DNA from: Salegentibacter echinorum
GTDB taxonomy: Bacteria > Bacteroidota > Bacteroidia > Flavobacteriales > Flavobacteriaceae
DNA: 64,000 bases
NCBI RefSeq assembly: GCF_900129445.1
Contig: NZ_FQVT01000001.1
Coordinates: 62,001-126,000 of the forward strand
Direction: 5' to 3'
Shown here: piece by piece, positions 6,533 through 23,313 of the stretch
How the letters are laid out: the number at the start of each line of letters is the position of its first letter
How positions within the stretch are numbered: the first letter of the stretch is position 1
The notes under the pieces: model-generated
Seen by the model: the letters and a program-made list of their open reading frames with translations, nothing else
What the model was told of the DNA's origin: nothing
Databases searched by the model: none
Made by a program: the position numbers and the translations under genes

Positions 6533-6826
6533 TCAAAGTTTTTTGAAGGTGAACGGTTTTTGCATTCAACATTTCCGTCAAAGGCATTTCAGGGTAATTT
6601 TTGTATTAATATTGGAGGATCAAATTGTATTAAGCCCTACAGTTCAAGTATTTTGAATTTAGGAGCAATGAGTTATGGCTCTATAAGTAAAGATGCAACT
6701 TTGGCATTAAATGCTGGGGCTAAAATTGCGAGTTTTGCACAAAATACAGGAGAGGGAGGTTTAACCCCATATCACAGGAAATACAAAGCTGACCTTTTTA
6801 AATATTTTAATTATAGACAGAGATAG
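6533..6826 (+). pseudogene. Fragment of an FMN-binding glutamate synthase-like gene
   Basis: The translated stretch contains FPSKAFQGNF, GGSNCIKPYSSSI, LGAMSYGSISKDA, LNAGAKIASFAQNTGEGG and LTPYHRKYKADL. These match the start of the FMN-binding domain of the glutamate synthase large chain and its stand-alone relatives of about 500 residues. Only about 95 residues remain: the frame is closed by a TGA at 6530 upstream, and the match is lost after KADL, where the real family continues with the FMN-site loop. No start codon or ribosome site is convincing (the only upstream start is TTG at 6560). It is best read as a leftover from an insertion or deletion event. Confidence 0.75.
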
Positions 6827-7028: not shown

Positions 7029-8042
7029 ATGAATTATTTAGTTTTATTTATTGGAATTACACTTTACATTATGATAGTTACTGATATGGTTATGACCACA
7101 GTGACAGTTAAAGGAGGTGGATGGATTACAAATAAAATCTCCTCTATGTCTTGGAAATTCTTTCTTAAGCTTTGTGATCACAACGGGAAATCTAGGCTTC
7201 TAAGTCATATTGGATATTTGCAATTACTGTTTATAGTTCTCTTCTGGGTAGTTATGCTGAATGTAAGTTTTACTTTGGTGTTGTGGTCTGATACAGCTTC
7301 AGTTATAAATAGCACATCTAAATTGCCAGTTAACTTATGGGGTAAAATATATTATTCTGGTTTTAGTTTATCTACTTTGGGAGTAGGTGATTACATAGCA
7401 AAAAATGATCTATGGCGTCTTGTAACGACTTTATATTCTTTTACGGGATTAATTCTTATTACGATGTCAATAACATATTTCATCCCAGTTCTTAATGCTG
7501 TAATTAAAAAACGCAAATTAGGCATACTTATAAGTAGCTTGGGTAAAGAGCCGCAAGATATGGTTCTAAACTCCTATAATAAGGAAAAGTGGGATGTGCT
7601 CAATTATCGAGTTGTTTCCCTTGCTGAAGAACTCATTGAACATAGTCAGAATCATCGAGCTTATCCGGTAATCCATTATTTTCATAATAACAAAAAAGAA
7701 AAAGCTATTATAATACAAATAGCAAGGTTAAATGAAGCCATATTTATATTAAAAAATTTTATAAAAATTGATGTTTCTTCTGAATCCAACCCGTTGGATA
7801 ATATTGATATAGCTTTAAGTGATTATATTGAGGTTATTCAGGAAGTGAAAGGTGTCAAATTTACCGAAGTTTTCCCTTCCAATCCTGGACTTAACAAGTT
7901 AGAAGATGCAGGTTTAATACAAAAGAATACAAAAAGCACTAATAAGTTGACAAAAGAGATGCAAAAAAGAAGAAAGGTATTATGTCGTTTGGTTAAAGAA
8001 GATGGTTGGGAGTGGAAGGATATAATTAAGCCTTCTATTTAA
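7029..8042 (+). CDS. Two-TM potassium channel-like protein with cytoplasmic domain
   Basis: A 337-residue protein. Hydrophobic segments near residues 1-20 and 70-95 precede a pore loop (FSLSTLGVGDY), in which TLGVGDY matches the T-x-G-x-G-D potassium selectivity filter. A second pore-flanking helix follows, ending ITYFIPVLNAVIKKRK. Residues 165-337 are a soluble tail of unknown fold, ending with KRRKVLCRLVKEDGWEWKDI. It lacks the TrkA-N domain common in Kch-type channels. It stands alone, 79 bases before the complex I-like operon, so it may share an ion-homeostasis role with it (inference). Confidence 0.75.
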   Translation: MNYLVLFIGITLYIMIVTDMVMTTVTVKGGGWITNKISSMSWKFFLKLCDHNGKSRLLSHIGYLQLLFIVLFWVVMLNVSFTLVLWSDTASVINSTSKLPVNLWGKIYYSGFSLSTLGVGDYIAKNDLWRLVTTLYSFTGLILITMSITYFIPVLNAVIKKRKLGILISSLGKEPQDMVLNSYNKEKWDVLNYRVVSLAEELIEHSQNHRAYPVIHYFHNNKKEKAIIIQIARLNEAIFILKNFIKIDVSSESNPLDNIDIALSDYIEVIQEVKGVKFTEVFPSNPGLNKLEDAGLIQKNTKSTNKLTKEMQKRRKVLCRLVKEDGWEWKDIIKPSI

Positions 8043-8121: not shown

Positions 8122-8484
8122 ATGTCCGCGCTACAACAATACACCATTTTATTCGGGATGATAGTGGGTACTTTGGGATTTGTAATAGTCCTTTACCTGC
8201 TCCATAGAAAAATGGTCAAAATGAGAAAGGAACCCGCAAAAGATATTCCTGCAGAAAGTGGTCGTTTACAACCAAAGCCGGCCTGGGGAAGATATCACGT
8301 ACATTATTATGGATATGCCCTGCTTTTTTTAGCCTTCGATATGGAGATGGCCTATATGTACCCCTGGGCCGTGATTTATAAAGAAGTAGGAATAACCGCC
8401 CTTTTGGATATGGGTGTTTTTCTGCTCATACTTTTTCTGGGACTGCTTTACACATGGAATCAGGGAGGACTCAAAAGACAATGA
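8122..8484 (+). CDS. nuoA: Complex I-like subunit A (NuoA family)
   Basis: A 120-residue protein with three membrane helices. The conserved YYGYALLFLAFDMEMAYMYP corresponds to the NuoA signature (FY..aL.FliFDvE....PWa), and PWAV follows it. In complex I this subunit lies at the junction between the membrane arm and the quinone cavity. It is the first gene of the operon; its stop overlaps the next start as ATGA at 8481-8484. The usual NuoA cytoplasmic loop is present (residues 33-50, Lys/Glu-rich). Confidence 0.9.
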   Translation: MSALQQYTILFGMIVGTLGFVIVLYLLHRKMVKMRKEPAKDIPAESGRLQPKPAWGRYHVHYYGYALLFLAFDMEMAYMYPWAVIYKEVGITALLDMGVFLLILFLGLLYTWNQGGLKRQ

Positions 8485-10028
8485 AAACCGGCATAAACAA
8501 ATATGGCACATTACCCCATGGGACTAAGGTTCCGGGCTTTCTTTTAGATTTGGCTAAAAAGTCTTTAAGGGTTTACCCCGTGCCCGGAATAGAAGCTTTT
8601 TTAGCCTGGGGTTTTAATCCTTATACCCGGCAATTGAAAATTACAGAGAGTCCGCGGCACGCCAATGTGCTATTAATTGGTTTTCCTATCTCTAAAAACC
8701 TGAAAAAAGCCGCCGCAGTAATCTTTGCTCAAATGCCCCGGCCGCGGATGCTGGTTTTTGTAGGAAATCAGGAAGGGCAACCTCTGCCAGAACCCGATTT
8801 AAGTATTGAATGGGATAAAATTAATTCTCTTTCTTCCCTCTTAAAAAACACAAAGCTAATTAACGGTGATTTTGAAGCATTTGAACCTGCTTTTTTGCAG
8901 GAAGCCTTAACCGATGAAAACGAAAACAGCCATGATCACGACCATCATCATCACGAAGAGCATAAAGATGATCAAGAGCATGATGGTTCGGAAAAAGAGG
9001 AAGAAAACGAAGATGAATCTGACGAAAACAACGAAGACAGCGAAGACCACGAGGATCACGGAGGTGGGGGAATGGACTTTATGTCCATGGTAGCAATGAC
9101 GAAGGGAAAGCCAAAGAGCAAAGATGGATTGATCATGGACAGGAATGAGACCTATTTTGGACCTTTCCATTCCGGACTCCCAGATGGGCTTTGTGTTAAG
9201 ATGACACTCGATGGGGATACCGTCATTCAGGCAGAAGTAGATCAGAATCTTTCTAACACTCCTGACCTTGAAAATTTTCCAAAAGACCCATTGGAATTGC
9301 CAAGTTACATGGCTAACGCATTTCCGCGGGAACCGGAAACTCTACGGAAACTCACAACATTGGCATTAACAGCTTCTTCGGAAGAAAAAGAAACCGAGCA
9401 ACCTTCTATGGTCTTGGAAAATGAGCGGCTTTTGAACCATTTGCTTTGGCTCAGAACCCTTTTACAGGCTTGCGGAGATACCGGACTGGTTTACCTTGTC
9501 ACCCAAAGCATTCAGGATTTTCACGGTAACAATTTATCGGAAGCGAAAATTAAAAAACTCACTAAAAAAATTAGCAGCCGGTGGTATTTAAAAAACAGGC
9601 TTCTAAAGCTGGCCATTATCCCAAAGAACTTATTGCACCATATAAGCGGACCTATTGCCAGGGCAGCAGAAGCGCAGCAAAATAACGCGTGGGGGCATCT
9701 ACAAATTCGGTTGACCGAACTAACCCAAAACTTTCAAAAGATAGAAAAGTCCCAAGGTGATAATTATGAACCTTTGCCAGGCCTGAACCCTGATAAGCGC
9801 ATAGAAGATCAAATTTCTTCGGCAACCGTCGAAACCGCCAACGGGAAAATGAGCCTCCAGGTGGAAATTCAAGCCGGAAATGTAAAAAATATAAGCTTAT
9901 CTTCCACTTCTAGGGCTCTGGCGGCGCTTGTTTCCACAATTACCAAAGACCTGGAACTAAGCGATGCCATAGTATGTATCGCCTCGCTTGGCATTTCAAC
10001 TTTTGTAAACAAAAAACTAAGACGATGA
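8481..10028 (+). CDS. Degenerate NuoB-NuoD-like fusion with His/acidic linker, cluster N2 cysteines lost
   Basis: A 515-residue protein; the ATG at 8481 overlaps the nuoA stop. Residues 30-100 follow NuoB: SPRHANVLLIG aligns with the NuoB SPRQAD segment and FAQMPRPRMLVFVGN with YDQMPEPR...GSC. The positions of the four N2 iron-sulfur cysteines hold other residues, and no Cys occurs before residue 238. Residues 145-197 are a His/Asp/Glu-rich linker (HDHDHHHHEEH). Residues 220-515 follow NuoD: YFGPFHSG (for FGPQHP), NERLLNHLLWLRTLL, SGPIARA, RLTELTQNFQKIE, and a C-terminal segment with SDAIVCIASLGISTFVNKK. NuoC is absent from the fusion. It probably caps the membrane arm without electron transfer. 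The linker may bind metal (inference). Confidence 0.8.
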   Translation: MKTGINKYGTLPHGTKVPGFLLDLAKKSLRVYPVPGIEAFLAWGFNPYTRQLKITESPRHANVLLIGFPISKNLKKAAAVIFAQMPRPRMLVFVGNQEGQPLPEPDLSIEWDKINSLSSLLKNTKLINGDFEAFEPAFLQEALTDENENSHDHDHHHHEEHKDDQEHDGSEKEEENEDESDENNEDSEDHEDHGGGGMDFMSMVAMTKGKPKSKDGLIMDRNETYFGPFHSGLPDGLCVKMTLDGDTVIQAEVDQNLSNTPDLENFPKDPLELPSYMANAFPREPETLRKLTTLALTASSEEKETEQPSMVLENERLLNHLLWLRTLLQACGDTGLVYLVTQSIQDFHGNNLSEAKIKKLTKKISSRWYLKNRLLKLAIIPKNLLHHISGPIARAAEAQQNNAWGHLQIRLTELTQNFQKIEKSQGDNYEPLPGLNPDKRIEDQISSATVETANGKMSLQVEIQAGNVKNISLSSTSRALAALVSTITKDLELSDAIVCIASLGISTFVNKKLRR

Positions 10029-10915
10029 TGTGGATGATTATTGGAATCGGTTGTTTAGTAAGCATATATGCGATAGTCGTTCTCGAACGTCGGTTGGTTT
10101 ATAAAACCTGGGAATTCGGCTATCCGGTTGCGGCATTCGCTTCCTACTTTATTCAGGAAAATGTAAAACCCCGAAAACGGGATAAAACATTTTATGAAAC
10201 CGCTCCCATATTGTTCATCACAGTGGCTGTGCTTGCCATCGGCATTTTCCCCTGGGCAGAATCAAGCGTCATTGCAAATATGGCTACGGGAGCCTTATTT
10301 TTTAATGCAGCCTTAGCCTATATTATGGTCGCCCTTGTGATGGCGGGATGGGCGCCAAATGCTGTTTATCCAATGATTGGGGGGTGGCGGTTTATGGGAC
10401 AACTTATCGCATATTCCATGCCTATTGTCATGGCCATTACGGCCACAGTAATGCGTGCAGAATCTATGAATATGATGGCTGTTGTAGAATCGCAAACCGG
10501 GTTATGGAACATTGTTTATCAACCTGTAGGATTTTTATTGTTTTACGCCGCTTCCCTGGCTTTGACTTTTTTGCCCCCGTTTGATTTACCAAACGCCCCG
10601 GGAGAATTAGAAGGAGGGGTTTTTGCCGAATTTACCGGGACACGCCTACTCATTTTTAGATTGGGCAGGATTATTTTAATTTTTAGCCTCTCCCTGGGGA
10701 TTACTCATTTTTTTCTGGGGGGTTGGGCCGGTCCTTTTCTCCCGGGTTATGTATGGGTGTTTTTAAAAACCATTCTTGTCGCATGTTCCTTCTTCGTTGT
10801 TGGAAACCTACTGCCCCGATTTCGGCATGACCATACCCTGGAATGGAGTTGGAAGTTGGCAACGCCCCTGGCATTGTTTAATATCCTATGGGTGGGAATT
10901 TTATTATTGTTATGA
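10025..10915 (+). CDS. nuoH: Complex I-like subunit H (NuoH family)
   Basis: A 296-residue membrane protein starting at ATG 10025 within the preceding stop. Recognisable NuoH segments: ETAPILFITVAVLAIGIFPW, AGWAPNAVYPMIGGWRFMGQ (NuoH: AGWASNSKY..LGGLR..AQ), YQPVGFLLFYAASLA, and PPFDLPNAPGELEGGVFAEF. In ordinary NuoH the last motif reads PFDLPEAExELVAGYxTEYS, so two acidic residues lining the quinone chamber are changed here (E to N and E to P). The first loop also lacks the usual GPNRVGP motif; the ERR after helix 1 remains. It forms the quinone-end membrane subunit and proton entry in complex I. These changes fit loss of normal quinone chemistry. Confidence 0.85.
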   Translation: MMWMIIGIGCLVSIYAIVVLERRLVYKTWEFGYPVAAFASYFIQENVKPRKRDKTFYETAPILFITVAVLAIGIFPWAESSVIANMATGALFFNAALAYIMVALVMAGWAPNAVYPMIGGWRFMGQLIAYSMPIVMAITATVMRAESMNMMAVVESQTGLWNIVYQPVGFLLFYAASLALTFLPPFDLPNAPGELEGGVFAEFTGTRLLIFRLGRIILIFSLSLGITHFFLGGWAGPFLPGYVWVFLKTILVACSFFVVGNLLPRFRHDHTLEWSWKLATPLALFNILWVGILLLL

Positions 10916-11430
10916 ATATAATTAGACTTAGCATATTAATTATTTTGGGTCTTGGCGCCATTTGGTTCGCCTGGAGGGTTTTTATGACCAGTAGCATGGT
11001 GCGATCGGCACTTTCACTTTTAGCTTCTATGGCTATTTTGGGAATGATGTTCCTGGTAATGGAAGCCGAATTCCTGGGCGTGTTGCAAATCATGATGATG
11101 GCTACGGAAATGAGCATCATGGCTATTTTTATGATGATGTATATGATGGATCCAGGGGGAATGGGAAATATGGATATGAGCCATCAAAAAAAACTGTCTA
11201 TTGGTACAAGCCTGGTGGCCGGTGCCATGGTTATTGTAGCCGTAAGCTTTTCCAATTGGGAAACCATTGCTACAGAAGTGCCAACACCAGCGAAACAAAA
11301 TTACGATTTGGGAATGGAATTGATGAAACGGTCCATGATGATTTTTGAAACTGCGGGAACCTCCATTCTCGTAGCCATGATCGTGTCCACTGCAACAGCG
11401 CTTCCTTTTAAAAACAAAAAAGATGATTGA
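10912..11430 (+). CDS. nuoJ: Complex I-like subunit J (NuoJ family), methionine-rich
   Basis: A 172-residue membrane protein; ATG 10912 overlaps the nuoH stop. The family segment (S)LLASMAILGMMFLVMEAEFLG corresponds to NuoJ ALSFLAVAGLYLLLGAEFLG. The following helix is unusual: where NuoJ has VQVLVYVGAVMVLFLFVVML, this protein has QIMMMATEMSIMAIFMMMYM, with nine Met in about 20 residues. This is the pi-bulge helix that gates complex I. A loop with GGMGNMDMSH follows. Met enrichment may reflect copper exposure or simple drift. The C-terminal helix contains a further short Met-rich stretch. Confidence 0.85.
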   Translation: MNIIRLSILIILGLGAIWFAWRVFMTSSMVRSALSLLASMAILGMMFLVMEAEFLGVLQIMMMATEMSIMAIFMMMYMMDPGGMGNMDMSHQKKLSIGTSLVAGAMVIVAVSFSNWETIATEVPTPAKQNYDLGMELMKRSMMIFETAGTSILVAMIVSTATALPFKNKKDD

Positions 11431-11731
11431 ACTGATAGTTGTATTAAGCGTTGGCGCCGTCTTGTTTGGTATTGGTATTTACGGTGCCTTGAGCCAAACG
11501 AACCTCGTGATGATTATGATGGGAATCGAGCTTATGCTCGGTGCTGCCATGTTGAACCTGGTCGCCTTTTGGCGGTATTTGCACCCCGAAGAATATTCCA
11601 TCCAAATGTTCGTCCTGGTGGGAATGACCGTTATGGCCCTGGAAGCAGCCGTAGGTTTTGCAATTGCCACCCAACGTTTCCGAACCAAAGGATCGGTAGA
11701 AATGGAAGAGGCAAGCGATTTAAAAGAATAA
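11423..11731 (+). CDS. nuoK: Complex I-like subunit K (NuoK family)
   Basis: A 102-residue protein with three membrane helices, overlapping nuoJ by 8 bases. MMGIELMLGAAMLNLVAFWR matches the NuoK signature, including the membrane glutamate needed for proton relay. The second conserved glutamate is in MALEAAVGFAIA. NuoK is related to MrpC antiporter subunits. Key acidic residues are intact, so ion conduction is likely preserved. Confidence 0.92.
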   Translation: MIELIVVLSVGAVLFGIGIYGALSQTNLVMIMMGIELMLGAAMLNLVAFWRYLHPEEYSIQMFVLVGMTVMALEAAVGFAIATQRFRTKGSVEMEEASDLKE

Positions 11732-11735
11732 AACA

Positions 11736-13625
11736 ATGAGTGAATTATTTCTATGGATATTGATCCTGGCACCTATAGGAGCCGCTCTTTTCGGTTATAT
11801 CTTCCGAAACGGCTCTTCTTTGCCTCATCTTATAGGGGTGTCGGCTTCGTTGTTGGGCAGCTTATTTTTGTTTTTGAATATATCTCAATCTTTTTCCCAA
11901 AAAATTGAATTTGGCGGCCTGGCCGATTTTCCATTTGTAGTGGTTGCCAATTATCAAAATGCACTTTTGGCCCTGGTTGTTTCGGTGGTGGCTTTGGCTA
12001 TTTTTATTTATGCCAAAGGCTATATGGAAGCTGAAAAAGGTAAAAGATGGTTCTGGCCCGCGATGAGCCTGTTTCTCGCCGCCATGCAAGTCCTGGTCAT
12101 GGCGGGAGATTGGTTCCTGTTTATTACGGGATGGGAATTGATGGGGCTGGCATCCTTTCTTCTGATCGGCACGTGGCACGAAAAAAAGAATGCCCGCCTC
12201 GGAAGCGTCAAGGCCTTTATGCTTACCCGTTTCGCAGATATGGGATTATATGCAGGTGCTTTTTTAACCATTATCACCTATAATCAACTGGCGGTTCCTT
12301 TTTCGGTTACCCAGGAAATTTCGGTGTTGGCAGCTTCCTGTTTTTTATTGGCGGTTATGGGGAAATCTGCGCAGCTTCCTTTCCAAAGTTGGCTTTCAGG
12401 TGCTATGGCGGGACCCACGCCAGTTTCCGCTTTATTGCACTCGGCCACGATGGTTGGTGCGGGAGCTTTGTTATTGTTTAAAATATACCCGATACTTCCC
12501 GAAGAAGCCTTGCTTTATATCGGAATCATTGGCTGTCTAACGATTATCCTTACCGGTCTAACGGCCATAACTTCCAAAGACTTAAAACAAATGTTGGCTG
12601 CTTCTACCTCAAGCCAATTAGGATTTATGCTTCTGGCTATCGGAGCGGGTTTTCCGGGAGCAGCCTTTGCACATTGGCTGGCACACGCTTTTATGAAAAG
12701 CACCCTCTTTTTAGGAGCCGGTGTTTTTCAACAGGGATATGAAAGCACCCAATACAAGAAAATTGCAGGTTCGGGTAAACAACTAAAGGTAACGCATTAC
12801 ACCTTTATTATTGCGGCGCTTGCCTTGACCGGAATTCCTCCATTAATTGGGTATTGGTCAAAAGATGGTATTCTTGAAGCTTCTCTGATATCGGGTAACT
12901 GGTTCTTCGTGGTCAGTGGGGTGTTGGGCGCATTTTTTACAGCGAGTTATGTTTCCATAGCCGTCCGTTGGCTCTGGAAAGGCAAGGCCGAAAAACCTTC
13001 TATTTCTAAAAAAAACCTGATGCTTACCGGGATTTTTATTCTGATTATCCTTGTCATTGCTGGAGGTTTTGGGCTGGAGCCCATCGTCAAAAAAATTGGC
13101 TATTCTATTCCAAAAGGCAAGTGGAGTATGGTGTTGGGATTGGTTGCGGCATTATTTGGACTGCTTACAGGATGGTTTTATAGAGAAAATTGGTTACCTG
13201 GAACTTTTACGAAATTCAGTCGGGAAAATTATACGCTTGCCGGGGGCTACCAAAACTTAGTGGTCAACCCCACGCTTAAAACAGCCAATTTTTTTCAGCA
13301 TATTGATGCATTTATTTTAGAATATATTGAAAAAATAGGGTACTTCGGACTTAATCTTAGTCAAACAATATTTAAAGCAGACCGGAATGTAAAAACTGCT
13401 GTTTGGGAAATCGGAAACTCCGGAATCTGGTTAAGTAGTTTCTCACAAATTTTCGATTTAAAAATTTTAATTAGTATTAAAACTATTGCTTCCAGTATTA
13501 AAGAAAGCGGGTATTATGGAAAAAAATGGCAATCGGGTTTGGTACATAAAGAACTGGCCATTACGATAATCTCCTTGCTTATTCTCATTTTTATATTAAT
13601 CATTAGCTTAATCGAATTGTTATGA
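11736..13625 (+). CDS. nuoL: Complex I-like subunit L (NuoL family antiporter subunit)
   Basis: A 629-residue protein with about 15 membrane helices. The conserved helix-5 glutamate is present in GWELMGLASFLLIG. The helix-7 lysine segment is KSAQLPFQSWLSGAMAGPTP followed by VSALLHSATMVGAG, the hallmark of Mrp/NuoL antiporter-type subunits. The C-terminal lateral-helix region (about residues 500-629) is present. Proton-channel residues are therefore kept. It starts 4 bases after nuoK and its stop overlaps the nuoM start. Length is normal for NuoL (about 610-650). Confidence 0.93.
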   Translation: MSELFLWILILAPIGAALFGYIFRNGSSLPHLIGVSASLLGSLFLFLNISQSFSQKIEFGGLADFPFVVVANYQNALLALVVSVVALAIFIYAKGYMEAEKGKRWFWPAMSLFLAAMQVLVMAGDWFLFITGWELMGLASFLLIGTWHEKKNARLGSVKAFMLTRFADMGLYAGAFLTIITYNQLAVPFSVTQEISVLAASCFLLAVMGKSAQLPFQSWLSGAMAGPTPVSALLHSATMVGAGALLLFKIYPILPEEALLYIGIIGCLTIILTGLTAITSKDLKQMLAASTSSQLGFMLLAIGAGFPGAAFAHWLAHAFMKSTLFLGAGVFQQGYESTQYKKIAGSGKQLKVTHYTFIIAALALTGIPPLIGYWSKDGILEASLISGNWFFVVSGVLGAFFTASYVSIAVRWLWKGKAEKPSISKKNLMLTGIFILIILVIAGGFGLEPIVKKIGYSIPKGKWSMVLGLVAALFGLLTGWFYRENWLPGTFTKFSRENYTLAGGYQNLVVNPTLKTANFFQHIDAFILEYIEKIGYFGLNLSQTIFKADRNVKTAVWEIGNSGIWLSSFSQIFDLKILISIKTIASSIKESGYYGKKWQSGLVHKELAITIISLLILIFILIISLIELL

Positions 13626-15106
13626 ATACGAGCCTACCTTTACTTAGTCTAACCCTTTTTCTACCCCTGGTGGGAGCTTTTATAATTTTGTTGTTACGGC
13701 ATTCCACCTCAAAAGTTGTCAATACCGTGGCAATTGTTTCTGCCACTCTTAGTCTTCTTGGTGCAATTGGTATTGGGTTTGGGCTGGATAGTGGTTTTAG
13801 CCATGTGGAAGAGTTGCAATGGATACCTGCCCTGGATGCAGCCTACCGTTTAGGAGTTGACGGAATTAGCTATACTGCGGTGTTGCTGTCAACTATTCTT
13901 TTTTTCTGCACCATAATATATTCCACAAAGAAGAAAGAAAAGTTGGGAGCCAAAATGGCCTTGTTCCTTCTTCTGGAAACTGCTTGTTTAGGGGTGTTTA
14001 TGTCGCTGGATTTACTGTTATTTTATATTTTTTTCGAAATCACCCTGGTAGGGATGTATTTTGTAATTGCAGGCTGGGGCCACGAGAACCGTAAAAAAGC
14101 GGCAATAATGTTCTTTATATATACTTTAATAGGTAGTCTTTTTTTATTGTTGGCGTTTTTATCCCTTTATATCTTTTCTGAGCCCCGTACTTTTGATATG
14201 CGCGAACTAATCGCAAACCCACCGCTTAGTGGTATGGTCGCCACCTTAACTTTTTGGGCGCTTTTTCTAGCCTTTGCCATAAAAACACCATTATTCCCAT
14301 TTCATTCCTGGCTACCCCTGGCACATACGGAAGCGCCGGCATCGGGAAGTGCCATTTTAGCCGGGATTTTGTTGAAACTCGGGGCCTATGGTTTTATTCG
14401 TTTTGCACTGCAGATGACGCCCGATGCATTTAAGGAATATGCCTGGATCGTGATGATTGTTGCGGTATTTTCGGTCGTTTATGGTGCCCTGGTAGCCATG
14501 GCACAGACAGACATAAAGCGCATGGTAGCCTACACCAGTATTAACCATATGGGGTACCTGGTTTTTGGTGTCGCCGTTGCAGCCATGATTCCTTCAACAT
14601 CTGGAATCCACGCCTTAGATGGTGCTACTTTACAAATGTTTAGCCACGGTATTGTTACCGGTCTCTTATTTTTACTGATTGGGGCGATACAAGAAAGGGC
14701 TACCACCAGGGAAATACCCGCTTTAAGAGGTTTGCTGAAAGCCTATCCTATCTTGGGCGGTTTCTTTGTGTTGGCGGCATTTGCTTCTTTGGGCTTGCCC
14801 GGATTGGCTCATTTTCCTGCAGAATTCCAAATATTTTTAGGCGGATTTGAAATCTACCCCTGGGCGGTTGCTATAATGCTGTTAGGTCTTGTGCTTACCT
14901 CAGCGCTCTATATACGAGCTATTCAACGTTCTTTTATGGGGACGCCCGATAAAAGCTTTCTTGTTAAGTTAAAAGACTTGGACGCCCGTGAATTATGTGC
15001 TTTTATCCCTTTGGTAATCCTGATTATAGCAATTGGTGTTTTCCCGAATTTAATATTAGATAGTATCCACCAAAGCGTTAAATACCTTTCAATATGGGAA
15101 AAATGA
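13622..15106 (+). CDS. nuoM: Complex I-like subunit M (NuoM family antiporter subunit)
   Basis: A 494-residue protein with about 14 membrane helices. The helix-5 glutamate lies in FFEITLVGMYFVIAGWG, and the helix-7 lysine segment is KTPLFPFHSWLPLAHTEAPA, then SGSAILAGILLKLGAYG, both textbook NuoM. The end contains the normal FPNLILD-like C-terminus. It overlaps nuoL by 4 bases (ATGA) and the following gene by 4. All conduction residues seen are intact. Confidence 0.93.
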   Translation: MNTSLPLLSLTLFLPLVGAFIILLLRHSTSKVVNTVAIVSATLSLLGAIGIGFGLDSGFSHVEELQWIPALDAAYRLGVDGISYTAVLLSTILFFCTIIYSTKKKEKLGAKMALFLLLETACLGVFMSLDLLLFYIFFEITLVGMYFVIAGWGHENRKKAAIMFFIYTLIGSLFLLLAFLSLYIFSEPRTFDMRELIANPPLSGMVATLTFWALFLAFAIKTPLFPFHSWLPLAHTEAPASGSAILAGILLKLGAYGFIRFALQMTPDAFKEYAWIVMIVAVFSVVYGALVAMAQTDIKRMVAYTSINHMGYLVFGVAVAAMIPSTSGIHALDGATLQMFSHGIVTGLLFLLIGAIQERATTREIPALRGLLKAYPILGGFFVLAAFASLGLPGLAHFPAEFQIFLGGFEIYPWAVAIMLLGLVLTSALYIRAIQRSFMGTPDKSFLVKLKDLDARELCAFIPLVILIIAIGVFPNLILDSIHQSVKYLSIWEK

Positions 15107-16458
15107 GTGAAGATTTATTGACTATTCTTCCACAGATTATTTTGTTGCTTACTGCCATGAGTGCGCTGGTATTTGAAATGCTACGCAAGCCTTTAGGTAG
15201 TTTATACACGCTAATAATAGGAATGCTGGGTGCCCTGGGTTTAAGTATCTATCGTTTAGGAACTGTAAAGACCGCCTTTTCTGGGACTTTCCGAAGTGAT
15301 GAATTGAGCCAATGGGCTGTAATTATTCTTTCCGGTGCGGCTATTTTTATTGGTTTGCTCGTTCGGCAGGAATTAAAGGGAACCGATAGGGAAGGAACTG
15401 TGTATAGTCTGCTTGCTTTTTCCACTTTAGGTTCCACCTTGTTAGCGGGGAGTGGTGATATGATGTTTTTGGTTTTGGGCGTGCTTATTAGTAGTCTTAC
15501 CGGTTTTGCATTAGCTGCTTATCCTAAAACAGATAGTGCTACGGAAGGAGCAGTAAAATATTTTGTGTACGGCTCGGTTACCGGAGCGATTATGCTTTTT
15601 GGTTTAACTTACTGGGCGGGTATTTCTGGAAGTACTTTACTTTCTGCATCGGAAAATACCAATCAGCCTTTTTTAATGCTGTTTGGTTTTGGAGCGCTTA
15701 TAGCCGGTTTAGGTTATGCTGCCTCTCTTTTTCCGTTTCATTTCTGGACTCCCGATACTTTTGAAGGTGCACCAGTATCTATTGCTGCGTTTTTATCGGT
15801 CACACCAAAAATAGGAGCCTTTTTTGCGTTGGCGCAGGTTATGAAAATTTTGCCACAGCATATTGTGGATTATAACTTGATCTTGGCGATTTTGGCAGCT
15901 TTTTCAATGACCTATGGGAACGTGGTTGCCTTATGGCAAAACAGTTTAATACGACTTTTGGCTTATTCTACGATAGCCCAGGCTGGCTTTTTTCTACTGG
16001 GTATAATTGGGATAAATCATAGCGATTTAGGAATTTCCTCCCTTATAATGTTCGGGTTTGCGTATGCTGCTATGAATATTGGCGCATTTGCTATTGTACA
16101 ACAAGTAGGGAAAAAAATATCCCATATCAGTGGATTGGCTTATAAAAAGCCTTTTATGGCTGTTGCGATGACCGTTTTTTTACTGTCTTTGGTAGGAATT
16201 CCACCTTTGGCAGGCTTTGCCGGGAAATTCCTGCTTTTTTCTTCTGCTATAGATTCAGGTTATACCTGGCTTGCGGTAGTAGGAATTTTAAATAGTGCAA
16301 TTTCCTTAGCGGTATATCTACGAATCATTTCACCGATGTTCTTCAAGAAACAATTCGAAAATGAAAGCTCGAATCAGTATTTAATTCAAATGGTTTATAT
16401 AAGCTGTTTTATTTTAACTATTGGCGCGGGTATAGCTGTACAGGTTATTATCGTTTAA
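15103..16458 (+). CDS. nuoN: Complex I-like subunit N (NuoN family antiporter subunit)
   Basis: A 451-residue membrane protein. The ATG at 15103 gives the same ATGA overlap used elsewhere in the operon; an ATG at 15094 is the alternative. EGAVKYFVYGSVTGAIMLFG and FPFHFWTPDTFEGAPVSIAA are NuoN signatures, followed by FLSVTPKIGAFFAL. It is the last membrane-arm gene; no nuoE, F, G or I follows. A hairpin at 16563-16587 probably ends the transcript. Confidence 0.92.
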   Translation: MSEDLLTILPQIILLLTAMSALVFEMLRKPLGSLYTLIIGMLGALGLSIYRLGTVKTAFSGTFRSDELSQWAVIILSGAAIFIGLLVRQELKGTDREGTVYSLLAFSTLGSTLLAGSGDMMFLVLGVLISSLTGFALAAYPKTDSATEGAVKYFVYGSVTGAIMLFGLTYWAGISGSTLLSASENTNQPFLMLFGFGALIAGLGYAASLFPFHFWTPDTFEGAPVSIAAFLSVTPKIGAFFALAQVMKILPQHIVDYNLILAILAAFSMTYGNVVALWQNSLIRLLAYSTIAQAGFFLLGIIGINHSDLGISSLIMFGFAYAAMNIGAFAIVQQVGKKISHISGLAYKKPFMAVAMTVFLLSLVGIPPLAGFAGKFLLFSSAIDSGYTWLAVVGILNSAISLAVYLRIISPMFFKKQFENESSNQYLIQMVYISCFILTIGAGIAVQVIIV

Positions 16459-16686: not shown

Positions 16687-17007
16687 ATGAGAAATGAGAA
16701 ATTAATTAATGCACTTGGAAATTGTATTAACCACTGCAATTATTGTGCTGATGCCTGTCTTGATGAAGATAATGTAAAGATGATGAAAGATTGCATTAGA
16801 ATTGACAGGGTATGTGCTGAAGCCTGTGCTGCTTTAAATCAAATTTTAGCCACGAGTTATAGCGATGTGAATGCCCTGGTTGAATATTGTAAAAAGGTAT
16901 GTCAGGATTGTGCAGATGAGTGCGATAAGCATGATCATCAGCACTGTAAGGATTGTGCGCAGGCTTGTAGAGAATGTGTAGAAGCTTGTGAAGTTTATCT
17001 GGCTTAA
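16687..17007 (+). CDS. Four-helix-bundle copper-storage protein (Csp/DUF326 family)
   Basis: A 106-residue protein with 15 cysteines arranged in CxxC/CxxxC pairs along predicted helices: CINHCNYCADACLDE, CIRIDRVCAEACAAL, CKKVCQDCADECDKH and CKDCAQACRECVEACEVYL. This is the pattern of Csp proteins, in which Cys residues point into a four-helix bundle and store many Cu(I) ions. No signal peptide is seen, so it resembles the cytosolic Csp3 class. A clear terminator follows. It sits alone between the complex I-like operon and the regulator genes, consistent with a copper-resistance island. Confidence 0.9.
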   Translation: MRNEKLINALGNCINHCNYCADACLDEDNVKMMKDCIRIDRVCAEACAALNQILATSYSDVNALVEYCKKVCQDCADECDKHDHQHCKDCAQACRECVEACEVYLA

Positions 17008-17542: not shown

Positions 17543-18109
17543 ATGACCAATATTATTTATATTAAAAATATGGTGTGTCCACGCTGTGTAAACTCAGTCG
17601 CGTTTATCTTAGATAAGTTGAAAATTTCTTATGGTATCATCAAACTGGGTGAAGTATATTTGGAAGAAGAACTAGATGAATATACAAAAAAACTTTTGAA
17701 AGAAGAACTTCGGAATTCTGGTTTTAGTCTAATAAACGATCGAAAAAGTCAACTTATTGAACAGATGAAAACATTGGTTGTAGATAAAATCCATCATTCC
17801 AATGAGGTACTCGATATAAAATGGCCAGAATTTATAAGTGAAAAATTACATCTTGACTATAAGTACCTTAGCTCTTTATTTTCTGCTGTAGAGAGTATTA
17901 CTTTTGAGCAGTATATCATCAATCAAAAAATAGAACGCATTAAAGAACTTATCATTTACAATGAATTGAATTTAAGCGAAATTGCATTTCAAATGAACTA
18001 TAGCAGTGTTGCCTATTTAAGTAACCAATTCAAAAAGATTACTGGAATGACGCCGTCGGAATTTAAAAAAAGTACCAATAAAAACCGTAGATCATTAGAT
18101 GAGATTTGA
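17543..18109 (+). CDS. AraC-type regulator with N-terminal metal-binding-like domain
   Basis: A 188-residue protein. Residues 1-70 resemble a heavy-metal-associated domain in miniature (YIKNMVCPRCVNSVAFILDK), where CPRC could hold a metal. Residues 80-188 are an AraC/XylS DNA-binding region with two helix-turn-helix units: NLSEIAFQMNYSSVAYLSNQ followed by FKKITGMTPSEFKKS is the family signature. Such proteins regulate metal-efflux operons in Bacteroidota and may sense the metal directly. It stands upstream of the RND efflux genes, and the neighbouring promoters carry a shared TGCACA motif (18326-18340 and 18830-18853), its possible site (inference). Confidence 0.85.
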   Translation: MTNIIYIKNMVCPRCVNSVAFILDKLKISYGIIKLGEVYLEEELDEYTKKLLKEELRNSGFSLINDRKSQLIEQMKTLVVDKIHHSNEVLDIKWPEFISEKLHLDYKYLSSLFSAVESITFEQYIINQKIERIKELIIYNELNLSEIAFQMNYSSVAYLSNQFKKITGMTPSEFKKSTNKNRRSLDEI

Positions 18110-18879: not shown

Positions 18880-21800
18880 ATGATTAATAAAATCATCGCG
18901 TTTTCCATTAATAATAAATTTATTATTGGCCTGCTTACCTTGGCTTTAATTGGCACAGGTATTTGGTCTATGTCTACCGTAAATCTGGGATCGGTACCAG
19001 ATATCACTAATAATCAAGTCCAGGTTATTACCCAGTCTCCTAACCTTGCTACAGAAGATATTGAGCAGTTTGTCACCTATCCTGTAGAACTTTCGATGGG
19101 TAACTTACCCGGGGTTACAGAAATACGGTCTATTTCCCGGTTTGGTCTTTCTGTTGTCACCATTGTTTTTAAGGATGATATGGGCACCTATCTTCCCCGT
19201 CAACTGGTTCAAGAAAAGCTTAATGAACTAAGTGAAACAATCCCCGATAAATTTGGAAGTCCTGCGATGGGACCTATATCAACGGGATTAGGACAAATTT
19301 ATGAATACACCATTAAACCAGAGGAAGGATATAATACCGAGTATTCTCCTATGGAACTCAGAACAATACAAGATTGGATTGTCAAACGGCAGTTAACACT
19401 TCTGGAAGGAGTTGTAGAAGTGAATTCTTTTGGAGGTTCCATAAAACAATATGAAGTTGCAGTAAACCCAGAAAAATTAAACAGTATGGGGATAAGCATA
19501 TCTGAAGTATATGAAGCTTTGGCTCGAAATAACGTCAATACCGGAGGTGCTTATATAGAAAAGAATAAAATGTCAAATTTTATCAGGGGGGAAGGTTTGA
19601 TTCGCTCTTTAGATGATATCAGGGAGATTGCTATTACCACGGAAAATGGAGTTCCCATTACCATTGGGGATGTAGCTAAAAATGTTCAATTTGGCAATCA
19701 AGTACGCTACGGGGCTTTTACCCAAGACGGAGAAGAGGCTGTAGGAGGAATTATCATGATGCTAAAAGGAGCTAATCCCAATGCGGTGATTCAAGATGTA
19801 AAAGATAGAATGGCCGAAGTGGAGAGATCTCTACCTGAAGGTCTAAAAATAGAACCTATAATTGACAGAAGTGAATTAATAGCTAGGACTACCGATACCG
19901 TAAAAACTAACTTACTAGAAGGTGCATTAATAGTAATATTTGCGCTGGTTATATTATTAGGAAGTTTAAGAGGTGGGCTTATTACAGCTACTACCATTCC
20001 CTTGTCCTTACTCTTTGCCTTTATATTGATGAAACAATTCAATGTTTGGGCAAATTTAATGAGCCTTGGAGCCATTGACTTCGGTATTATTATAGACGGG
20101 GCAGTTATCATCATTGAAGGTACTGTTTATGAAATCCAAAAACGTATTCGATCTGGCAAGGTGAAATTTAAGCAGGGAGTCATGGATGAAGTAGCCTATG
20201 ATGCAGGAAGTACGATGATGGGGTCTGCCTTTTTTGGACAAATCATTATACTTATTGTTTTCACACCTATTCTTTTTCTCACCGGTGTTGAAGGAAAAAT
20301 GTTTAAACCAATGGCCTATACCTTTGGTTTTGCGATGATAGGCGCCATTTTCTTATGCCTTACATACGTACCAATGATGTCAGCTCTTTTGATGAAACCT
20401 ATTCAAAATAAAAAGAACTGGTTTGGGAAGTTTGAGCGCTGGTTGGAAAAAGTAAGCGACAAAATAATCGGCGGTATTCAAAAAGTATATACGCCTTTAC
20501 TTAAAGGCGCTTTAAAATTAAAACTGATAGTAATAGGCTCAGCCGTAGTATTACTTATTATTGCTGGTTTTCTTTTTTCCAGAATGGGAGGTGAATTTGT
20601 CCCACAACTGGATGAGGGTGATATTGCCATGCAGGCATTAATTAGACCAGGGAGCTCCTTAACGGAGTCTATCGAGGTTTCTAAAAAAATAGAGAATTTA
20701 CTTTTAGAAAACTTTCCTGAAATTAAAACTGCTACAGCAAGAATAGGAGTAGCTGATATTCCTACTGATCCTATGCCAATGGATATTGCTGATATGTATC
20801 TAATCTTGGAAAAAGATAAAGATAAATGGACTACTGCTGACACCAAGGAAGGCCTTATAGAACAAATTAAGGAAAAACTTAACAAGGAACTTACCGGGGT
20901 TAATTTGGTGTTTACGCAACCAGTAGAGTTACGTTTTAACGAATTACTGGAAGGTGTACGGGAAGATATTGCTGTTAAGCTCTATGGAGAAGATCTGAAT
21001 ATTCTCTCAGATAAAGTTCAGAAAATGGCTGATATTATACAGACAGTACCAGGAGCAGGTGATGTGAATCCAGAAAGAACTTCTGGTTTACCTCAAATGA
21101 CGGTTCAGTTTAATCGCAAAAAAATTGCGCAGTATGGACTTGACATACAAAAAGTTAATGATTATATAAGTACGGCGTTTGCCGGAGGTACCGCCGGGGT
21201 GATTTTTGAAGGAGAAAAGCGATTCGATTTAGTAGTACGCTTTGATGAAAACCATCGAACGAATATTGATGATCTACGCGGCATGTATATAGACCTTCCT
21301 GATGGAACTCAGGTGCCGATCAAGGAAATAGCTAATATTGAATATGTGCCAGGACCGATGCAGATTTCCAGGGATGATACTTATAGAAGGACATACGTGG
21401 GCGTCAATGCACGTGGAAGAGATGTAGAATCTGTGGTTAAAGATATTCAGCAAAAGCTGAATGAGGAATTAGACTTACCACCGGGTTATTATATTTCTTA
21501 TGGAGGAGAATTTGAAAATCTCCAAAGCGCTAAAGATCGATTGACCATTGTAGTTCCTATTGCGCTGTTTTTAATTTTCGTACTGCTATACTTTGCACTA
21601 CAATCCTTTTCCCAATCAATAATGATTTATATAGCCATTCCATTGGCTGCCATAGGAGGCGTATTTGCACTATGGTTAAGGGATATGCCCTTTAGCATTT
21701 CTGCCGGCGTCGGGTTTATTGTTTTATTTGGTGTGGCCGTATTAAATGGATTGGTACTCATCAACAGGTTTAACTCCTTAAAAGAAGAAGGGGTAACCAG

Positions 21801-23313
21801 TATTAAAGACAGGATTTTTACAGGAACCAAAGAACGAATAAGACCTATTATGTTAACAGCAACAACAGATATCTTTGGTTTCTTGCCTATGGCTTTTTCA
21901 GCATCGGCAGGAGCTGAAGTTCAACGACCTTTGGCCACGGTAGTGATTGGAGGTATGCTTACAGCAACCTTACTTACCCTGGTTGTTCTTCCCGTACTTT
22001 ACACATTTGTAGAAAAGAGACGGGAAAAGAAAGAACAAAACAAGTTAAACTCTTCAGGTTCACCATCCTTAGCCACTATTCTGGTTATAGGATTGGTTTT
22101 AGGAGGAACGATGTCGGCTTCTGCCCAATCCAATACTAGGGAAGACAGCGAATTGTTACAGGACAGTTTGCAAACAATTAGCTTGGAAAAAGCTCAACAA
22201 ATAGCTATTAAAAACTACCCCAAAATGCAAGCCGCACAACTGGAAATAGAAAGTGAGGAAGTATTGCGAAAAACCGCCTACGATTTTGGAAACACCCAAA
22301 TCTTTACAGGAAAGGAAGAGGTTGGAAATGGCTCCGACGGGATTTATACCCAAATTGGCGTCCAACAAGGAGGAATTGACATTTTTGGAATAGTACCACG
22401 GTTAAAATTACAAAAAGAAAGAATAGCTCTTGCTGAAAATGCCTTAGATCTAAATACCATTGAAATTGAACGGGAAGTAAGCAGGGCTTGGGCTGCTGTT
22501 TATGCCCAAAAAAAGACCTTTCAGGTCTATAAAAAAATGGACTCTATTTTTGAAGATATTGAAAGGGCTGCCCAGATTAGATATGAGACCGAAGCTACTT
22601 CAAAACTGGAATACCTGGCCACGTCCAATCAGGCAAATGAAGTTAAGATCCAGTTGGAACAGGCCTTTCGAGATTACTTGACCTCCCTGCAACGGTTAAA
22701 TTTATGGCTTGTGTCTGATACGTTGTACGATGTACCCGATTTGCCAACCGAAGCATTGGACGAACCATTGAATTTCTTGGTGGAATCACTTGAAAACCAT
22801 CCCCTATTGGAAGTTTCCAAACAAAGGGTAGATGTTGCCAAGGCGGTCACGAGGGAACGAAAATCTGAGTTCTTGCCAAAATTCCAGGGACAATACGCCA
22901 GGCAGGAAATCAACGGACAATCCGGTTTTTATCAATATCAGTTAGGGATTCAGATCCCGATATTCTTTGGACCTGAATTAGGCCGCACACAGGAAGCAAA
23001 AGTAAACCGAAAGATTGCAGAGCAGAATTTTTATCAGGATCAACTTGAATTGGAAACTGCGTATAAAAATATGCGGGAAGAATTCATCAAATGGAGGAAT
23101 TCCTGGAACTATTACAAAAATGAGGCCTTGCCTTTAGCAAAGGAACAGCAAGATGGCAGCGTGTTGGCTTTTAAGGAAGGAGCTATAGATTATGTGACCT
23201 TCTTACAAAATATCAGGGATGCCATTCGTATTGAGATAAATGCGTGGAGTGCCTTTAATGACTACCTCGACAGCCGATATCAACTCGAATACTACCTTGA
23301 AAATGCAAATTAA
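18880..23313 (+). CDS. Heavy-metal RND efflux pump (CzcA/CusA family) fused to a TolC-like outer-membrane factor
   Basis: A 1477-residue protein. Residues 1-1045 are a complete RND pump of 12 membrane helices with two periplasmic loops. The helix-4 motif IDFGIIIDGAVIIIEG matches the DFG...DGA form of CzcA/CnrA-type pumps (Co, Zn, Cd, Ni) rather than the CusA form. The periplasmic part contains GGEFVPQLDEGDIAMQ. Residues about 1064-1086 look like an internal signal peptide (basic residues, hydrophobic core, SASAQ). Residues 1090-1477 are an outer-membrane efflux (TolC-like) domain. Such fusions are known in Bacteroidota and may be cleaved into two proteins. The periplasmic adaptor follows 23 bases later. 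Confidence 0.93.
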   Translation: MINKIIAFSINNKFIIGLLTLALIGTGIWSMSTVNLGSVPDITNNQVQVITQSPNLATEDIEQFVTYPVELSMGNLPGVTEIRSISRFGLSVVTIVFKDDMGTYLPRQLVQEKLNELSETIPDKFGSPAMGPISTGLGQIYEYTIKPEEGYNTEYSPMELRTIQDWIVKRQLTLLEGVVEVNSFGGSIKQYEVAVNPEKLNSMGISISEVYEALARNNVNTGGAYIEKNKMSNFIRGEGLIRSLDDIREIAITTENGVPITIGDVAKNVQFGNQVRYGAFTQDGEEAVGGIIMMLKGANPNAVIQDVKDRMAEVERSLPEGLKIEPIIDRSELIARTTDTVKTNLLEGALIVIFALVILLGSLRGGLITATTIPLSLLFAFILMKQFNVWANLMSLGAIDFGIIIDGAVIIIEGTVYEIQKRIRSGKVKFKQGVMDEVAYDAGSTMMGSAFFGQIIILIVFTPILFLTGVEGKMFKPMAYTFGFAMIGAIFLCLTYVPMMSALLMKPIQNKKNWFGKFERWLEKVSDKIIGGIQKVYTPLLKGALKLKLIVIGSAVVLLIIAGFLFSRMGGEFVPQLDEGDIAMQALIRPGSSLTESIEVSKKIENLLLENFPEIKTATARIGVADIPTDPMPMDIADMYLILEKDKDKWTTADTKEGLIEQIKEKLNKELTGVNLVFTQPVELRFNELLEGVREDIAVKLYGEDLNILSDKVQKMADIIQTVPGAGDVNPERTSGLPQMTVQFNRKKIAQYGLDIQKVNDYISTAFAGGTAGVIFEGEKRFDLVVRFDENHRTNIDDLRGMYIDLPDGTQVPIKEIANIEYVPGPMQISRDDTYRRTYVGVNARGRDVESVVKDIQQKLNEELDLPPGYYISYGGEFENLQSAKDRLTIVVPIALFLIFVLLYFALQSFSQSIMIYIAIPLAAIGGVFALWLRDMPFSISAGVGFIVLFGVAVLNGLVLINRFNSLKEEGVTSIKDRIFTGTKERIRPIMLTATTDIFGFLPMAFSASAGAEVQRPLATVVIGGMLTATLLTLVVLPVLYTFVEKRREKKEQNKLNSSGSPSLATILVIGLVLGGTMSASAQSNTREDSELLQDSLQTISLEKAQQIAIKNYPKMQAAQLEIESEEVLRKTAYDFGNTQIFTGKEEVGNGSDGIYTQIGVQQGGIDIFGIVPRLKLQKERIALAENALDLNTIEIEREVSRAWAAVYAQKKTFQVYKKMDSIFEDIERAAQIRYETEATSKLEYLATSNQANEVKIQLEQAFRDYLTSLQRLNLWLVSDTLYDVPDLPTEALDEPLNFLVESLENHPLLEVSKQRVDVAKAVTRERKSEFLPKFQGQYARQEINGQSGFYQYQLGIQIPIFFGPELGRTQEAKVNRKIAEQNFYQDQLELETAYKNMREEFIKWRNSWNYYKNEALPLAKEQQDGSVLAFKEGAIDYVTFLQNIRDAIRIEINAWSAFNDYLDSRYQLEYYLENAN

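Follow-up and report, generated by a model that had tools for sequence, protein, structure and literature searches.

What might a set of complex I membrane subunits do when the protein that ought to feed it electrons has lost its redox sites? The question is raised by an eight-gene operon on the plus strand at positions 8122-16458 of a 64,000-nucleotide stretch of the Salegentibacter echinorum genome (NCBI RefSeq assembly GCF_900129445.1, contig NZ_FQVT01000001.1, positions 62,001 to 126,000; hereafter the window). The operon encodes relatives of NuoA, H, J, K, L, M and N together with a fusion of NuoB-like and NuoD-like sequences. The reading we favor, and whose chances we put at about even, is that these genes encode a machine derived from complex I that performs no redox chemistry, and in which the proton gradient moves a soft metal ion. 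On this reading the ion would most likely be Cu(I) or Ag(I) and would probably travel outward. The parts of the operon are as follows.

8122-8484, plus strand: NuoA-like subunit (Pfam Oxidored_q4, E = 3.6e-26)
8338-8358, plus strand: D73-M-E-M-A-Y-M79 segment of the NuoA-like subunit
8481-10025, plus strand: NuoB-like/NuoD-like fusion of 515 amino acids, without cluster cysteines
8583-8795, plus strand: NuoB-like half of the fusion (residues ~35-105), without the cysteine ligands and without the C-terminal half of NuoB
8931-9077, plus strand: His-rich linker of the fusion, 10 His per 50 residues
9078-9101, plus strand: FMSMVAMT motif of the fusion, residues 200-207
9156-10025, plus strand: NuoD-like half of the fusion, with a segment of ~35 residues by the quinone site gone
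10025-10915, plus strand: NuoH-like subunit (Pfam NADHdh, E = 6.9e-58)
10888-11430, plus strand: NuoJ-like subunit (Pfam Oxidored_q3, E = 7.2e-18)
11086-11184, plus strand: third transmembrane helix (TM3, the gate helix) of NuoJ and the loop after it, carrying a methionine ladder, residues 67-99 with E74 and H99
11423-11731, plus strand: NuoK-like subunit, keeping E36 and E74 and gaining Met30 and Met71
11736-13625, plus strand: NuoL-like antiporter subunit, keeping its channel residues
13622-15106, plus strand: NuoM-like antiporter subunit, keeping its channel residues
15094-16458, plus strand: NuoN-like antiporter subunit, with the equivalents of E. coli E133 and K217 changed

The open reading frames of adjoining genes overlap, the sole exception being a 4-base gap between K and L, so that the eight tightly coupled genes described in the original prediction, an earlier note made from the sequence alone, are borne out by coordinates and overlaps alike. 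All seven membrane subunits exceed the Pfam cut-off of their own family. For comparison, 84,980 species genomes were scanned with FMSM or FGP patterns, giving 176 pattern matches and 103 relatives, the best 80 of which yielded 79 loci (designated Lnnn; the genome of the window, G000, is 99.98% complete). With L046 excluded as a copy, 51 of 78 loci hold the fusion and every one of A, H, J, K, L, M and N; of the remaining 27, 26 have an operon cut by the locus end, as judged from positions, and one (L087) is without M and N.

Taken alone, the window fusion is too diverged for single-sequence searches. It matches NCBIfam nuoB at E = 0.015, nuoD at 0.062 and MbhJ in the PDB at 0.012, and it reaches no Pfam family at 0.01, with a single chance-level match at 0.062. 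Its homology is settled because its relatives match. In an alignment of 54 fusions (53 of 69 full fusions plus L018, those left out being mostly near-copies), Complex1_49kDa is matched by every fusion except that of the window, and Oxidored_q6 by 19. A profile built from the 54 retrieves MbhL (2e-27) and a NuoB-type chain (1.6e-8) from the PDB. At the level of sequence, these profiles confirm the predicted NuoB and NuoD ancestry.

The ligands of the N2 iron-sulfur cluster have gone from this protein, as had been claimed: the first Cys of the window fusion is residue 238, and an alignment of 13 fusions with E. coli NuoB shows neither the CC pair nor the GACA...PGCPP half in any of them. Nor have ligands moved elsewhere in the fusion, as there is no Cys in any column at least 90% conserved across the 54. 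In the NuoD-like half, about 35 residues beside the quinone site are gone and the TDRIEYLGG region, which holds the Tyr, is changed; the quinone-site His has become Phe in 46 of 54 fusions, the window fusion being among the eight that retain it. NuoH has changed as well. Its E157 is lost in 78 of 78 family members (Ser in the window) and is Glu in 13 of 13 ordinary NuoH; E216, also a quinone-site acid, is lost too; and the PEAExE motif is altered, the predicted substitution of PFDLPNAPGEL for PFDLPEAExEL being real in the window translation.

We found no replacement for the missing electron-input subunits. Outside the fusion, no homologue of E. coli NuoB, CD, E, F, G or I is present at E ≤ 1e-4 in the window or in the 78 relative loci, in agreement with the statement in the original prediction that NuoC, E, F, G and I genes are lacking here; whether homologues lack them too had been posed there as a check. 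The G000 genome holds zero matches to PF01058, PF00346, PF00329 and PF01512 besides the operon, and its sole NuoJ-family match is the operon's own NuoJ. We therefore reject a redox arm encoded elsewhere in this genome, including the separate NuoB/C/I set that the prediction had raised as a possible objection, on the strength of the absent NuoB, C, D and F families; the genome-wide search for arm subunits did not extend to E, G and I. A NuoB-family protein (PF01058) exceeds its cut-off in 12 of 12 other carriers checked, and there the machine is thus probably a second system. Sharing of a redox arm is possible in hosts other than that of the window.

What occupies the electron-input half instead appears to be metal-binding sequence: a His-rich or HMBD-bearing linker between the NuoB-like and NuoD-like parts, followed by FMSM. 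Of the 54 fusions, 50 have a linker with a His content of 10% or more, and 52 have either such a linker or an HMBD motif; the Pfam domain itself (HMBD, PF19335) is found in 39. The window linker is of the His-rich kind and has no HMBD. Among the PDB matches of the fusion profile is also a domain from a P-type ATPase that translocates copper (8ovl, 2.9e-8). Residues F200, M201, S202, M203 and T207 are found in 54 of 54 fusions, a set partly selected on FMSM. Conservation as a by-product of the search was considered and rejected: a second search, made with NuoJ, reached 33 loci of the first subtype (type 1; the second is described below), some from genomes shared with the first scan, and all 33 carry FMSM.

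The most extensive change lies in the channel subunits. The review PMC10212512 describes A, J, K and part of H as building the E-channel, with NuoJ TM3 as the gate that joins the quinone cavity to the proton axis. Across the 40-residue core of NuoJ that spans the gate helix and its loop, all 79 family members (38 distinct cores) carry 11-13 Met, compared with 1-3 in 30 ordinary NuoJ (29 from Bacteroidota loci plus E. coli, L118 having been dropped). A Tyr found in all 30 ordinary cores is Met in all 79 family members. Met 71, 75, 78, 82 and 86 share one helix face at 100-degree spacing. Three further residues are invariant in the 79: Glu74, which is Ala in 30 of 30 ordinary proteins; Glu61, which none of them has; and His99, which three have.

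Other subunits around the gate have gained Met as well. NuoK carries M30 and M71 in 78 of 78 family members and in none of 30 ordinary ones; the M71 position, Ala in all 30, adjoins the kept E74. NuoH carries M132 and M136 in 78 of 78, compared with 0 of 13 in a control of only 13 rows, and has gained Met106 and Met117 beside them. In NuoA, M74, M76, M79 and M97 are Met in 72 of 72 family members and not in E. coli, the only yardstick here, and the first three surround D73 and E75. Met content is 10.9% in family J compared with 3.3% in E. coli, and 8.8% compared with 5.0% in K; in L, M and N it is 2.7-3.7% compared with 3.9-5.1%, with no enrichment, and we therefore rejected general Met usage as the source of the ladder. 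The tested channel residues are retained in window K, L and M, and those of L and M are retained in the family, two L columns varying in 1-2 of 71.

The machine is one member of a rare, scattered family. Its carriers span at least six phyla by NCBI names: Bacteroidota, Balneolota (Fodinibius), Actinomycetota (Rubrobacter), Chloroflexota, Deinococcota (Trueperaceae) and the alpha- and gammaproteobacteria; Fodinibius is Balneolota by those names, and one phylum count groups it with the phylum of the window. Thirteen plasmid records have a match. With the query included in each case, the machine is present in 1 of 299 genomes of the window's family, 1 of 385 of the L033 class, 20 of 394 of the L033 family and 18 of 39 of the L027 family (Rubrobacter), and 24 of 124 Marinobacter genomes (the L030 genus) carry a NuoJ of the family kind. 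In a tree that holds only these two groups, a branch with support of 100/100 parts 28 family NuoJ rows from 30 ordinary ones. One plasmid locus, L013 (pXAUT01 of Xanthobacter autotrophicus, 11669-12360), shows nothing of the operon beyond A and a short 5' stretch of the fusion gene.

A second subtype comprises nine further loci, five in the L033 family and four in the L030 genus. All nine of its NuoJ proteins have a Met ladder of the same kind and a His-rich C-terminal tail. Its fusions (visible in eight) have neither HMBD nor FMSM and show, by eye, an M-x-M ahead of DGL and GPF. The ladder is thus kept even where the His buffer has another place, and nothing speaks more strongly for the ladder as the functional core.

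Copper genes surround some of these operons. A panel of core copper genes, searched by BLAST, gave a hit in 26 of 48 testable loci (those whose flanks span 6 kb or more; the window, L002, L013, L014, L016, L018 and L046 were left out) compared with 2 of 20 random 20-kb Bacteroidota stretches. Copper genes lie in all three type-1 Marinobacter loci that were retrieved. The window operon is flanked by multicopper oxidases, a DUF326/Csp-like gene, a CusA-type pump, a CusB-type protein, two P-type ATPases and a CDF protein. Two of the neighbors recur near related operons.

16687-17007, plus strand: Csp-like four-helix copper storage protein (DUF326; Pfam DUF326 over its cut-off, TIGR04401 under its own cut-off)
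7029-8042, plus strand: potassium-channel-like protein, a possible accessory (Ion_trans_2)

A DUF326/Csp-like gene stands directly upstream of A in L020, L031 and L035. A K+-channel-like gene lies near the operon, within about 2.2 kb, in the window and in L020, L021, L023, L040 and L086. It follows N directly in L086 and is about 2.2 kb off in L040; its product perhaps serves charge balance. Azurin, cytochrome c and multicopper oxidase genes stand beside some family copies, and a DUF6629 gene recurs by the operon in 8 of 48 testable loci (L010, L011, L033 and other alphaproteobacterial ones).

How might such parts work together? Under the reading that we favor, the cytoplasmic linker between the NuoB-like and NuoD-like halves, His-rich or HMBD-bearing, would capture the metal and hand it on to two places: FMSM, at what was once the quinone pocket, and the NuoJ loop with its M-x-M-x-H. 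The ion would then climb the Met ladder of NuoJ TM3, aided by the Met of NuoA, H and K, along a route that takes the place of the E-channel. Inward proton flow through the antiporter subunits would pay for this movement, and the coupling element would be the NuoJ gate helix with its Glu74. Such a proton-driven soft-metal translocator would account at once for four features: redox sites that are lost, cytoplasmic metal buffers, a gate with a Met ladder running through it, and proton subunits that are kept. A more specific version falls somewhat short of even likelihood in our estimation: that the pocket binds Cu(I) or Ag(I), that gate helix and E-channel together form a Met ladder across the membrane, and that several protons are spent per ion, making a multi-proton exporter unlike RND, CDF or P-type systems, with two subtypes that place the His-rich buffer differently. 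The original prediction had envisaged an ion-translocating membrane module in a metal-resistance island, driven or gated by something other than NADH or ferredoxin. The module, the lack of such an arm and the metal-resistance region hold up, and none of the family models searched names the set; the linker and its HMBD, FMSM, the NuoJ ladder, the changes in NuoN, the second subtype and the distribution had been overlooked.

Several observations weigh against metal export by such a machine. The window fusion has no HMBD, and it is without about 20 residues past SGPIARA and the C-terminal SLDxSPWE, both kept by its relatives; in two of the 54 fusions the linker has neither an HMBD motif nor enough His to pass the cut-off. 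Certain Met are ordinary rather than gained, namely J M84 (in 30 of 30 controls), K M33 (28 of 30), K M68 (23 of 30) and H M143 (8 of 13), and the notion that all family Met are new was rejected on that account. That the Met of J, A, H and K line one path is suggested by homology. At the NuoN position of E. coli E133, which we take to be the TM5 Glu, 64 of 64 family members have Leu or Val, and at that of K217 the window has Ala and 55 of 64 have Lys; as for NuoA, E. coli is the sole yardstick for these comparisons. Without the TM5 Glu, full proton coupling of NuoN is not assured, and the predicted intactness of proton-channel residues in K, L, M and N holds for the first three and fails for N.

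The copper context has its own weaknesses. No core copper gene is in reach at 22 of the 48 testable loci (13 gammaproteobacterial, 7 alphaproteobacterial and 2 other), and we therefore reject universal copper linkage, including the earlier idea that homologues might always sit with copper genes. Among 60 of the 74 neighbor proteins of these copper-less loci that were scanned, no copper family appears among the matches listed (25 of 93 families). Copper genes occur in 3 of 8 type-2 stretches of 17-20 kb, and the random-stretch control was drawn from Bacteroidota and is not lineage-matched. The window and several carriers already own CusA or P-type ATPases, which puts the need for another exporter in question. 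The only pointer to an outward direction is gene context.

The strongest rival, which we regard as possible but doubtful, is that metal binding by the fusion acts as a sensor that opens L, M and N to proton or Na+/K+ flux and so, with an effect like that of Mrp, restores pH or membrane potential when metal stresses the cell. It would accommodate the retained channel residues of L and M, the K+-channel gene that neighbors the operon in the window as in five related loci, and the presence of other copper exporters in the window and several carriers. A sensor, however, has no need of Met along the whole of NuoJ TM3 or of the new Met in A, H and K, and the operon offers no MrpE/F/G-type partner.

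We consider it unlikely that ion pumping is powered by electrons that copper delivers where quinone once bound, as the available portions of Eddie et al., 2021 (PMC8233155) suggest for Marinobacter atlanticus. That proposal drew on co-expression, and the Met and His sites described here could hold copper. The site itself argues the other way: its His is Phe in 46 of 54 fusions, although eight including that of the window keep it, its neighboring segment is gone, its Tyr region is changed, and the NuoH acids E157 and E216 are lost; moreover, the gene set encodes no electron carrier.

Import or delivery of metal for cuproprotein assembly, rather than resistance, seems to us improbable. Many gammaproteobacterial operons do sit amid ordinary genes, and some copies have azurin, cytochrome c or multicopper oxidase genes beside them; in other lineages, however, the setting is a plasmid or island with efflux genes, and large cytoplasmic His buffers suit capture ahead of export. 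A functionless, decaying remnant of complex I is very hard to credit: although the window fusion is without parts that its relatives keep and one related plasmid has only A and the start of the fusion, the window has eight open frames, 51 of 78 loci still have the full set and locus ends truncate 26 of the 27 others, and new residues are invariant across phyla.

Other features of the window are recorded here. A 1477-residue frame at 18880-23313 (plus strand) joins an AcrB/CusA-type pump (residues 5-1044) to a C-terminal outer-membrane efflux protein domain. An AraC-type regulator at 17543-18109 (plus strand) has an N-terminus, IKNMVCPRCVNSV, that resembles a heavy-metal-associated domain by eye, Pfam giving the HTH (helix-turn-helix) part only. 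An 88-residue frame at 6560-6826 (plus strand) matches a short stretch of glutamate synthase (PF01645) and is perhaps a relic at the island edge. At 43210-43500 (minus strand), antisense to the urease alpha-subunit gene at 43055-44773, Rfam reports a 5' ureB sRNA (RF02514; 70.8 bits, gathering threshold 40), a family known from Helicobacter; the match may merely mirror conserved urease coding sequence. A role in defense was rejected, PADLOC giving no match for the fusion or NuoH.

If metal-driven or metal-driving antiporter subunits do exist here, they would have two consequences. How the quinone site of complex I is coupled to its proton channels is still debated, and in this family the gate helix and channel look re-tooled for an input without electrons; were metal binding alone to drive, or be driven by, the antiporter subunits, coupling would be electrostatic or conformational and open to study without redox chemistry. 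In addition, the family would add a class to the known transporters of copper or silver, one carried partly on plasmids and in metal-resistance islands.

How, finally, does the machine compare with systems already described? It belongs to the complex I superfamily in the broad sense, having homologous H, J, K and antiporter subunits and a NuoD-related chain. With respiratory complex I (Nuo/Nqo/Ndh) it shares homologous A, H, J, K, L, M and N, parts of B and D, and the L and M channel residues. It differs in each of the features that define complex I: N2 ligands are gone from the window fusion and the 13 aligned ones; the quinone-site His/Tyr and NuoH acids are not preserved across the 54 fusions and their NuoH partners; and the C, E, F, G and I subunits of the peripheral arm are lacking from the operon, the window and the related loci, with the C and F families absent from the G000 genome, where E, G and I were not sought. 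The E-channel, besides, is rewritten with Met.

Group 4 membrane-bound [NiFe] hydrogenases and Ehr complexes have the same B-D-H core on antiporter subunits, and MbhL (2e-27) is the best PDB match of the D-like half. Those systems keep cluster-bearing B-type subunits. Here, by contrast, no Cys that could serve as a NiFe ligand is conserved at the 90% level in the 54 fusions, the cluster ligands of the B-type half are missing from the 13-fusion alignment, and B and D form one chain with a putative metal-binding linker. Mrp antiporters and DabAB/MpsAB likewise have antiporter-like subunits without a redox arm; they are not known to have H or a BD-type input module. The operon contains no MrpE/F/G-type gene of the MrpA-G set and no DabA-like chain, no genome-wide search having been made for either.

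Among metal exporters, copper P-type ATPases with cytoplasmic HMBD or His-rich N-termini share the HMBD, but they are driven by ATP and the machine has no ATPase domain. CusA, a Cu/Ag exporter of the HME-RND (heavy-metal efflux RND) family, couples proton drive to the passage of Cu(I) along a ladder of Met, as the review PMC7558416 describes; the likeness would be one of logic, proton drive and Met ladder, in an unrelated protein family.

The closest precedent is in Marinobacter atlanticus, where a copper operon contains a nuoADHJKL cassette that is co-expressed with copper genes and for which copper redox was suggested as a possible driver of pumping (Eddie et al., 2021; PMC8233155). This cassette of complex-I-like genes probably belongs to the same family, and the paper is the only one found that treats such a set. 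The statement in the original prediction that no described system was known is therefore nearly right: no searched family model names the set, but the cassette had been noticed in 2021. In the portions of the paper available to us, its account gives no worked-out mechanism, and the Met ladder, the HMBD, the loss of cluster ligands and the distribution do not appear. Eddie et al. report M and N as missing; the seven loci from the Marinobacter genus analyzed here, among which M. atlanticus is not necessarily represented, all have M and N (in L240, M is in two frames).

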